A stretch of DNA of 64,000 nt, taken from Candidatus Gastranaerophilales bacterium (GTDB taxonomy: Bacteria; Cyanobacteriota; Vampirovibrionia; Gastranaerophilales; Gastranaerophilaceae). Positions 21,756 through 24,465 of the stretch are shown here, piece by piece. The notes below the pieces were generated by a model, which was not told the DNA's origin, did no database searches, and saw nothing but the letters and a program-made list of their open reading frames with translations. Positions within the stretch are counted from its first letter, which is position 1, and each line of letters starts with the position of its first letter. The stretch is taken from the NCBI GenBank assembly GCA_947624975.1, contig CANQMP010000005.1:1-64000 (forward strand), read 5' to 3'. A program made the translations under genes and the position numbers.

Positions 21756-23133
21756 ATCCGATGAAATATTATCCAAAATCGCCGAAAGCTTTGATAATAA
21801 GGTTTATGTGGTAGGCGGAACGGTGAGGGATTATTTTTTTGATAAAAAAAGTCATGACCGTGATATTGTTGTTATTGATGAGGATGCACGGGAATTTGCC
21901 CTTAAACTTCAAAAATTGTTTAAAGCCTCTTTTGTTCCGCTGGATGAGGAAAATAAGATATACAGACTTGTTTTGCCCGACAAAATAAATTACATTGATG
22001 TTACAAATCCCGTGGGAGGCTCTATTGAAAAGGATTTGCAGCGAAGAGATTTGACGATTAACGCAGTTGCCGCCGATATTAAAACAGGTGATGTTATTGA
22101 TATTTTCGGCGGTGTAACGGATATTAAAAACAAATGTATTAACTATATTTTGGAGCAAAATTTTGAGGACGACCCGCTTAGATTATTGAGGGTGTACAGA
22201 TTTCAGGCATTATACGGGTTTGAGCTTTCTTCAGATACGGTTCATACCGTCTGCAAGTATGCAAAACTCGTGAATAAGCCTGCAAATGAGAGAATTATAT
22301 ACGAATTACAAAAACTCTTTGGCGGGAAATACACCCCTAAAGCACTTGAAAATATGGATAAAACAGGAGTTTTGGAGAAAATTTTCCCGTTTGTGAAGGA
22401 GTTAAAAAAAGTTCCGCCGAACTCTCATCATCATTTGGATTTGTTTCACCATTCGCTTGAAACTGTTCGACAAATTCAGTTTTTGTACGAGCAGGCATGT
22501 GATGAAGTTAAGGAACATCTTGACACGGTTGATTTTGGCGGATTTCCACGTCTTGTATATTTAAAACTCGCAGGTTTTATGCATGATATCGGAAAGTTTT
22601 CCGTTTGGACGATAGAAAATGGTCGTCACAGATTTATCAAGCATGATGATGTCGGGGCAAAGCTGGCTGCAAAACTGCTTAAAAAAATGAATTTTTCAAA
22701 CAAGGTTACGGAATATGTTTCGACAATGGTTAAGTATCATATTTATCCGTCGCATGTGGTTTCAGCGCCTGATGTTTCGGAAAAAACGATGATGCGGTTT
22801 GTGCGAAAATCCGATAAAAACGCTATTGATAATATTGTTCTTGCGATGGCTGACAGATTGTCCGCAAGAGGCCCTGAAATTACCGATGAAATCGTCAAAA
22901 ATAACATCGACTCGTTAAAAAAACTTCTGGATTTTTATCTTGAAAAACGTGAAACGCTTGAACCTTTGCCTAAATTGCTTGACGGAAACGATGTTATGAA
23001 ACTTTTAAACATCAAGCCGTCGCCGAAATTGGGCAAAATTCTTGATGCACTTTATGAAGCACAGCTTTCGGGAAATGTTACAACATTTGAGCAGGCACAA
23101 GAGTTTGTCAAAAACATGGGTAATCATCTTTAA
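21733..23133 (+). CDS. cca: CCA tRNA nucleotidyltransferase/poly(A) polymerase family with HD domain
   Basis: VYVVGGTVRDYFFDKKSHDRDIVV, RRDLTINAVA, FMHDIGK. Confidence 0.9.
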   Translation: MNIIQNIKSDEILSKIAESFDNKVYVVGGTVRDYFFDKKSHDRDIVVIDEDAREFALKLQKLFKASFVPLDEENKIYRLVLPDKINYIDVTNPVGGSIEKDLQRRDLTINAVAADIKTGDVIDIFGGVTDIKNKCINYILEQNFEDDPLRLLRVYRFQALYGFELSSDTVHTVCKYAKLVNKPANERIIYELQKLFGGKYTPKALENMDKTGVLEKIFPFVKELKKVPPNSHHHLDLFHHSLETVRQIQFLYEQACDEVKEHLDTVDFGGFPRLVYLKLAGFMHDIGKFSVWTIENGRHRFIKHDDVGAKLAAKLLKKMNFSNKVTEYVSTMVKYHIYPSHVVSAPDVSEKTMMRFVRKSDKNAIDNIVLAMADRLSARGPEITDEIVKNNIDSLKKLLDFYLEKRETLEPLPKLLDGNDVMKLLNIKPSPKLGKILDALYEAQLSGNVTTFEQAQEFVKNMGNHL

Positions 23134-23785
23134 ATTCCCAGCCGTCCAGCATTAATAATACTCCGCATGCATTACATTTGGTTTTATTACAAGCGGCAAA
23201 CATCTTTTTCGTATTAGCTTCCAAATACTCGTAACCGTTAAAAATTTCCTCGCGGGTTAAGTTATCTTTCCAAGCTACGGGATAAAGACCTTTATTATTA
23301 ATAACGAAATAAAACTTATTTTTTCCCCATTTCTTCTTACCTCCTCCTATTCCAAAAACAACAGGATATAAGAAATCAACTTTTTGGTCTAATGCACCGC
23401 CTAATCCGAGGCTTATGCCATTATTCAATCTATAACCGACATCAAACTTACTTATGCCGACATAGCACTTAGAGTCCTTGTCGGGACATTCCGTATAATT
23501 TTTTAAGTAAGGGAGAATGTATTTTTCTGCGAATTCTCTATTTGATTCTTCAGATGAAGGATAACTATATGACCAGCAACTTATTGGTCCGTTATCAATT
23601 TGTGAAAGCCTTAAAGCCTGAGATAAAATTGAATATGCTTGTTTAAGACGTATAGCGACAGCTTTTTTCTCATAATTGCGAATTAATGTCGGAACTGTCA
23701 ACGCTGCCACAATGCCGATAACGCCTAGTGTTATTAAGACTTCGGCGAGTGTAAAACCTGTTTTTCCAGTGTTTTTATTAATCAT
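23108..23785 (-). CDS. type IV pilin-like pseudopilin
   Basis: MINKNTGKTGFTLAEVLITLGVIGIVAALTVPTLI; C-terminus LDGWEFKDDYPCF; SD AAAGGAG before the internal ATG at 23785. Confidence 0.85.
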   Translation of the reverse strand: MINKNTGKTGFTLAEVLITLGVIGIVAALTVPTLIRNYEKKAVAIRLKQAYSILSQALRLSQIDNGPISCWSYSYPSSEESNREFAEKYILPYLKNYTECPDKDSKCYVGISKFDVGYRLNNGISLGLGGALDQKVDFLYPVVFGIGGGKKKWGKNKFYFVINNKGLYPVAWKDNLTREEIFNGYEYLEANTKKMFAACNKTKCNACGVLLMLDGWEFKDDYPCF

Positions 23786-23800
23786 TCTAGCTCCTTTCAT

Positions 23801-23862
23801 AACCTGTTTATAACATGTTATAGTATAATACTTTTCTCATTTTTTGTAAAGTACATGTTATA
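23801..23862. promoter_or_regulatory. candidate operator palindromes between pseudopilin and AbrB-like gene
   Basis: Perfect 14-bp palindrome TATAACATGTTATA 23809-23822, related AACCTGTTTA 23801-23810 and ACATGTTATA 23853-23862. Confidence 0.65.
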
Positions 23863-23882
23863 GACATTGTTTAAGAGGTAAC

Positions 23883-24053
23883 ATGGAAAGAAAATTATTC
23901 AGAACAGGAAACGGGTGGTCATTATTTGTTCCGAAAGTTATTATCGAACTGTTGAAAATTGACCCCGAAAATGATTTAATTGAAATGCAAGTTGAAAATG
24001 ACATTTTGAAAATTAAAAGAGTAAATAATGAAAGCACTGATTCAAAGAGTTAA
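23883..24053 (+). CDS. small AbrB/MazE-like DNA-binding protein (56 aa)
   Basis: [56 protein letters not shown]; below the ORF track cutoff; SD AAGAGG upstream; overlaps dtd start. Confidence 0.7.
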
Positions 24054-24465
24054 AGATGCCTCGGTGACGATTAACGGGGAACTTTTTTCCTCAATTCGGC
24101 AAGGATTGCTGGTTTTTCTCGGCGTTGAGAAAAATGATGAGAAAATTAACGCCGAAAAACTCGCTGATAAAATCTTAAAGTTACGAATTTTTGAAGATGA
24201 AAACGGAAAAATGAATCGCTCAATAAATGAGCTTAACGGAGAAATTCTTGTGGTTTCCCAATTTACCTTGTGCGGTGACTGCAAAAAAGGCACAAGACCT
24301 TCTTTTGACAACTCCGCAACTCCCGAAAAAGCCGTAAAACTTTATGAATACTTTGTCGAATGCGTTAAACAAAGCAAATTAAATGTTCAAACAGGCAAAT
24401 TCCGCGCCATGATGGATGTTAAGCTTACGAATGACGGCCCTGTAACCTTTTTTATAGAAAAATAA
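24028..24465 (+). CDS. dtd: D-aminoacyl-tRNA deacylase
   Basis: [42 protein letters not shown]. Confidence 0.95.

Follow-up and report, generated by a model that had tools for sequence, protein, structure and literature searches.

The antitoxin MazE has palindromic sites near its own gene, and MraZ, a two-domain AbrB-fold repressor encoded upstream of rsmH/mraW, has short direct repeats about one helical turn apart in the neighboring promoter. Bacillus AbrB and the cyanobacterial cyAbrB proteins act as global regulators and lack a tight palindromic consensus. Gastranaerophilales, common and hardly cultured gut bacteria that are non-photosynthetic kin of cyanobacteria, carry tens to more than 100 prepilin genes in their small genomes. 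Pili genes have been described in Melainabacteria (PMC5877343), and pilin expression loci that undergo antigenic variation are known from Neisseria pilE/pilS (PMC4023411, PMC3899283). Searching the literature, we found no description of a regulator-pilin module such as the one reported here.

A gene for a predicted 56-aa regulator, divergent from a prepilin gene

The DNA we analyzed (hereafter the window) is a 64,000-nucleotide stretch, C5:1-64000 of a 1.91-Mb draft genome whose close relatives in GTDB are mostly Candidatus Gastranaerophilales (Melainabacteria) MAGs. The initial annotation had pointed to a small 56-aa ORF facing a pilin gene, and we find the two exactly so, with the ORF (23883-24053, +) and the prepilin gene (23108-23785, -) diverging from a 97-bp gap. 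The features of the locus, in window positions and with loci assigned to regulator clades by N-terminal signature, are:

23883..24053, + strand: regulator gene, SpoVT-AbrB/MazE-type DNA-binding protein of 56 aa (by conservation, codon pattern and predicted fold)
23108..23785, - strand: prepilin (pseudopilin) gene with FTLAEVLITLGVIGIVAALTVP N-terminus (PF07963, DUF6613, TIGR02532)
24028..24465, + strand: dtd, D-aminoacyl-tRNA deacylase (PF02580, 9.2e-60)
23845..23850, - strand: pilin promoter -35 box TTTACA, kept in 16/17 clade A loci
23822..23827, - strand: pilin promoter -10 box TATACT, with a 17-bp spacer to the -35 box; TATAYT at equal spacing in the clade A loci inspected
23809..23822, no strand: perfect 14-bp palindrome TATAACATGTTATA, center 23815.5, in equal register after the -10 box in relatives
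23812-23819, no strand: candidate operator site O1, AACATGTT, inside the 14-bp palindrome and centered on the predicted transcription start
23801..23808, no strand: candidate operator site O2, AACCTGTT, its center exactly 11 bp from O1
23852..23859, no strand: candidate operator site O-1, TACATGTT, one base upstream of the -35 box and 40 bp from O1
23864..23871, no strand: candidate operator site O-2, ACATTGTT, close to the regulator start (relatives compared)
Regulator paralogs: C5 (window); C2:98617, with the pilin start 77 nt away; C17:37464

The window prepilin matches Pfam N_methyl (PF07963) at 8.9e-5, above cut-off, matches DUF6613 as well, and scores above cut-off for TIGR02532, the prepilin N-terminal cleavage/methylation motif. 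Its start at 23785 has a Shine-Dalgarno sequence, AGGAGC, at 23790-23795 (minus strand), and a further in-frame ATG upstream, at 23800, adjoins operator site O2. As to pilus/secretion machinery, PF00437-type (T2SSE) ATPases account for at least four matches above cut-off in the window genome. On the other side of the locus, dtd overlaps the regulator gene by 26 nt in the window and lies 3' of the regulator in many, not all, clade A loci (other genes take this place in L062, L063 and L068); since it is missing downstream in some of these loci, dtd is probably a bystander of the regulator-pilin unit.

The regulator gene is present in 26 of 33 congeneric genomes and also in Gastranaerophilales species of GTDB, and its protein is 91% identical in the sister species (L055). 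Searched with a family profile, 149 of 241 genomes in the taxonomic family, from 31 of its 36 genera, contain relatives. Within clade A, regulator codons differ at third vs. second positions in a ratio of 2788:268, and single-base codon changes comprise 2048 synonymous and 346 nonsynonymous ones, pointing to purifying selection. Judged by these patterns, the 56-aa ORF is a real gene. Lack of conservation was one of the outcomes that would have refuted the initial annotation, and we found sequence, codon pattern, fold and position beside a pilin gene all conserved.

We modeled the 56-aa protein as a monomer with AF2, which gave only a vague fold from the single sequence and a pLDDT of 85 when run on a 23-sequence alignment. 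In Foldseek, the alignment-based model matched E. coli MazE (1mvf_D; probability 1.00, rmsd 1.4 Å over 45 columns, TM 0.83 of target) as well as AbrB and VapB, and the top 29 matches are nearly all AbrB-fold or related swapped-hairpin proteins, with E-values kept weak (best 0.04) by the tiny size of the protein. The predicted monomer has the beta-beta-alpha-beta-beta swapped-hairpin fold of the SpoVT-AbrB/MazE superfamily, and by this predicted fold we place the protein in the SpoVT-AbrB superfamily, in agreement with the AbrB-like label it had been given from its sequence. Among profiles, Pfam MazE (PF04014) matches 4 of 19 family members (best 4.4e-6) and not the window protein, while NCBIfam TIGR02609 ('putative addiction module antidote') matches the window protein at 0.011, far below cut-off, and a paralog at 1.4e-6.

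All three regulator paralogs of the window genome are divergent from a prepilin gene; the one facing C17:37464 breaks off after AFTLAEG, with a second pilin behind it. The genome holds 103 N_methyl prepilin matches, the window prepilin among them, and a chance pilin neighbor is not rare (about 3-6% per gene, with ~1850 genes assumed); we therefore used the regulator family as its own control, counting a locus as paired when a divergent prepilin start lay within 420 nt and covering 141 distinct loci. Pairing was found in 50 of 57 loci of clades A-D vs. 1 of 84 in all remaining clades (Fisher p = 3e-29 before correction for relatedness, the loci sharing descent and the counts not being independent). 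On the regulator tree, which is built from short proteins and has many unresolved forks, pairing occurs at five distinct positions (A, B, C, D and L072) and forces at least nine gains or losses. Comparative evidence strongly supports the local regulator-operator-pilin unit that had been proposed from the window alone, and the initial reading as an autoregulatory pilin switch is borne out in part.

Other members of the family face other genes. A sister regulator clade (MYRKLMRNGNGW; L037-L042, L052) faces rsmH (PF01795, 3e-110), the usual neighbor of MraZ, and has palindromic operator candidates of its own. Further mini-AbrB clades (L045, L047, L109, L120, L132, L137, L162 and others) face unnamed 60-80 aa proteins, possibly representing a family of additional regulator-partner pairs.

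Predicted promoter and operator sites

Nearly all of the 17 clade A loci share a sigma70-type pilin promoter of the form TTTACA-N17-TATAYT, the exception in the -35 box being L066 (TTTATA). Given the -35 box at 23850-23845 and the -10 box at 23827-23822, the pilin start point is predicted at the palindrome center; AACATGTT-like sites begin 2 nt and 13 nt past the -10 box, and two further sites precede the -35 box. The palindrome and two extra sites had been noted from the window before, and we recover them at the same spacings of 11 bp and 40 bp, the latter involving TACATGTTATA, whose ACATGT is centered at 23855.5, exactly 40 bp from the palindrome center at 23815.5. The palindrome is indeed exact, but the fuller picture is that it belongs to an 11-bp array, with four sites or more, that straddles the pilin promoter. 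In the sister subclade, O-2 is AACGTGTT, 11 bp from O-1. The regulator's own promoter could not be clearly recognized.

Taken alone, the 14-bp palindrome is mildly unusual, expected in roughly 1-2% of gaps with this length and base composition: perfect 14-bp palindromes arose in 66 of 5000 dinucleotide shuffles of the 97-bp gap, and 11 of 659 equally long tiles of the window contain one. The window copy of TATAACATGTTATA is the only perfect one in the genome, and copies with up to two mismatches show no genome-wide excess (31 vs. 39 in a backward control). What lifts the palindrome above chance is conservation, with TAAAGTACATG invariant in 17 of 17 clade A loci and AACATGTT-like sites paired at 11 bp (z = -19); clade A site pairs at this spacing average 1.8 mismatches in total, vs. 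3.8-5.9 when the spacing differs and 6.2 in shuffled sequence.

Comparing loci across the family, we find that the operator sequence is specific to each regulator clade. ACATGTTA is present in 16 of 17 clade A loci vs. 1 of 124 others, the sole outside locus having a clade-A-type regulator and a glycosyltransferase partner; ATAAGTAT is present in 22 of 26 clade B loci vs. 3 of 115 others, and TGTAACAA in 6 of 6 clade D loci vs. 0 of 135 others. At corresponding positions, clade B has TATAAGTAT-type sites and clade D has GTTATAAC. The palindrome goes with the regulator rather than with the pilin, since L089 keeps a clade A-type protein, AACATGTT repeated in 11-bp steps and the clade A promoter with a family 8 glycosyltransferase (GT8) as partner, and since pilins are exchanged behind a fixed switch (next section). 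L107, from clade B, faces a TupA-like ATP-grasp enzyme.

The initial annotation had also suggested looking for the same palindrome at other pilin loci. A genome-wide search for the palindrome and the 11-bp tandem found none upstream of this genome's other pilins, ruling out a pilin-wide regulon and leaving a locus switch, and most of the other copies examined lie inside genes. One tandem, at G000:C7:56475-56510 (L019:2976-3011), has two AACATGTT palindromes 22 bp apart plus ACATTGTT and is flanked by an Xre-type gene (109 aa) and a 102-aa ORF; it may be another target of the regulator, or an unrelated sequence of similar appearance.

Exchange of pilins behind the proposed switch

As read from aligned loci, the regulator, promoter and operator are constant and the adjoining pilin has been repeatedly exchanged over evolution. 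We compared 102 locus pairs in which the promoter side and the post-pilin side were both alignable as DNA. The pilin body was unalignable in 74 of these pairs and conserved in 25, and the promoter and downstream flanks of swapped genes reach 91% DNA identity around unrelated pilin bodies. Across 34 loci in five synteny groups there are 17 pilin types by the DNA criterion, or 15 once borderline diverged ones are merged, and 15 types in five groups imply at least 10 replacements.

The same pattern appears in protein identities. In clade A loci with dtd-side synteny, median identity is 0.90 for the regulator, 0.73 for dtd and 0.33 for the pilin body, the last spanning about 0.23 to 0.94. Between the window and its sister L055, identity is 88% in the promoter region, 91% in the regulator, 75% in dtd and 30% in the pilin body, and several non-syntenic pilins of the sister genome (best 44%) are nearer to the window pilin than the syntenic one (36%; C32:6953, assigned by coordinates). 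In a one-case control, a different window pilin finds a full-length match of 58% in this sister genome. Related pilins are also found behind different switches, as in L065 (clade A) and L141 (clade D), at 80% aa identity, and twice the pilin has been replaced by a surface-glycan-type gene, namely the GT8 gene of L089 and the TupA-like ATP-grasp gene of L107.

One pair, L110 and L114, places the boundary of a swap: its members are 89% identical in DNA on the promoter side and 91% after the gene, with nothing alignable between except that the first ten codons from FTLAE are 93% identical before identity falls to background, a pattern that places one crossover in or beside the conserved prepilin segment. 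In the remaining swap pairs, the whole prepilin segment is near the background of 73%. For the swapped pilin L110, the one tested, 10 congeneric genomes yielded no close silent donor (the best other copy reaches 50% aa), and gene conversion from a same-genome silent copy was rejected for it.

Some prepilins have split N-termini (L002:1763-2200, L029, L034, L062, L065, L116, L141 and L166), in which AFTLAE(G) is followed by ~15-200 residues or a frame break and then by a second AFTLAEVLITLG. The inserted stretch often comes from dispersed repeats, and it looks like repeats or a donor upstream region have gone into the conserved prepilin segment. A simple insertion that duplicated its target was ruled out as the source of these AFTLAE...AFTLAEVL N-termini, there being no clean duplication because the two copies are not identical.

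A further view of pilin turnover comes from two congeneric genomes that are ~87% identical and colinear over 60 kb, G098:C1:180000-239999 (L227, L226, L228) and G174:C5:38000-97999 (L230, L229, L231). Six intergenic gaps of 1.0-1.5 kb, each holding one prepilin gene, are present in one genome only, with no clear mobile-element ends, and of the pilins only the regulator-linked one occupies the same position in both, its body swapped. With one query, prepilin matches number 84 in one genome vs. 10 in the other, gain and loss not being polarised. A single pilin query gives about 50 to 155 matches in relatives G253-G264 of the window genome (G000), and several contigs of the G000 assembly end inside prepilin genes.

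Candidate mechanism and comparison with known systems

We consider it likely that this orphan, divergently encoded MazE/AbrB-type regulator, probably an autoregulated repressor, guards an expression site for interchangeable surface genes. Locus comparison establishes the gene, its predicted fold, the pairing, the site array, the clade-specific operators and the swapping of cargo, and from these we infer DNA binding, autoregulation, and repression rather than activation. In the proposed mechanism, dimers of a stand-alone MazE/AbrB-type protein without a toxin would bind AACATGTT-like palindromes 11 bp, or one helical turn, apart, with one pair of sites spanning the predicted start of divergent pilin transcription and another just ahead of the -35 box, on the side of the regulator's own start. 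A filled array would shut the pilin promoter and probably the regulator's own as well, giving an autoregulated local switch. The switch would be the constant part, and the gene behind it, usually a prepilin, the interchangeable cargo swapped by evolution.

We favor repression on the grounds that the array covers the start point of a promoter already near consensus. Its main rival is activation from O-1, with the 56-aa protein as an activator (or anti-silencer) of the divergent pilin at O-1/O-2 and with O1/O2 giving feedback. O-1 does end one base upstream of the -35 box and holds the most invariant block of the region, but near-consensus -35 and -10 boxes at the ideal 17-bp spacing would need no activator and O1 is centered on the predicted start point in a register shared among relatives, so that we regard activation as unlikely. 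The palindromes could also be sites of another global regulator (e.g., LexA-like) and not of the 56-aa protein, as the similar tandem with 22-bp spacing between the Xre-type gene and the 102-aa ORF at C7:56475 might suggest; this is quite improbable given that ACATGTTA is nearly confined to clade A loci (16/17 vs. 1/124), that the site stays when the partner is a glycosyltransferase, and that different clades carry different sites in the same position.

The predicted MazE fold and the weak TIGR02609 match (0.011; paralog 1.4e-6) would suit a degenerate antitoxin of MazE or doc-partner type that retains autoregulation and has the pilin as a bystander. We give this very little credence, since no toxin gene is seen beside the regulator and its downstream genes vary (dtd, alaS and, by eye, convergent ileS- and gyrA-like genes) whereas the divergent pilin recurs in 50 of 57 loci. 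A toxin-antitoxin pair was ruled out, as no toxin gene (MazF, Doc/Fic, VapC, YhaV) is adjacent; the regulator's neighbors across loci are prepilin genes, dtd or others recognized as non-toxin. Least probable of all is an operon in which the switch serves dtd and the pilin is incidental: the 26-nt overlap in the window and the downstream dtd of most clade A loci favor it, but some clade A loci and clades B-D keep the pilin without dtd downstream, and as a general explanation service of dtd was rejected because dtd is not always there.

Returning to repression of an exchangeable cargo gene, a broader joint reading seems plausible to us, if a little short of probable. A miniature AbrB-type regulator and its private operator set would own the promoter of a dedicated site into which different pilins, and sometimes surface-glycan enzymes, are recombined, with up to three mutually orthogonal sites per genome, amounting to modular surface-identity switching in a gut commensal with a genome-wide reservoir of up to ~100 or more pilins. 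If true, MazE/AbrB-type mini-regulators have turned into private guards of surface-gene expression sites, and operator and regulator diversify together, clade by clade. What is new is the replacement, over evolution, of the pilin behind a persistent switch, and the predicted regulator, exact operator and promoter offer a handle on the prepilin genes of Gastranaerophilales.

Compared with MazE and the TIGR02609 'doc partner' antitoxins, the 56-aa regulator shares the fold (TM 0.83 to 1mvf_D), the size of the DNA-binding half and, as for MazE, palindromic sites near its own gene, but it has no toxin gene, no C-terminal toxin-binding tail beyond about 10 residues, and a prepilin as divergent partner; with no toxin, it is not a toxin-antitoxin pair. 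It resembles MraZ in its AbrB fold, in short repeats about one helical turn apart in the adjoining promoter, and in having a sister clade that faces rsmH. MraZ itself has two tandem AbrB domains and is co-directional with rsmH in the dcw cluster, whereas the window regulator is a single, divergently encoded 56-aa domain with palindromic AACATGTT sites in place of MraZ-type direct repeats, and with one domain and the other orientation it is not MraZ. With Bacillus AbrB and cyAbrB it shares the DNA-binding fold and, through its phylum, kinship with cyanobacteria, but it appears local, with one operator set per paralog. Like Neisseria pilE/pilS, finally, the locus combines a conserved promoter and prepilin N-terminus with replacement of the pilin body between constant flanks (74 of 102 pairs, between species); same-genome silent donors, sought for one pilin (L110) in 10 congeneric genomes, did not emerge. 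Unlike in Neisseria, the whole-body replacement is seen here between species, and the locus has a dedicated local regulator.
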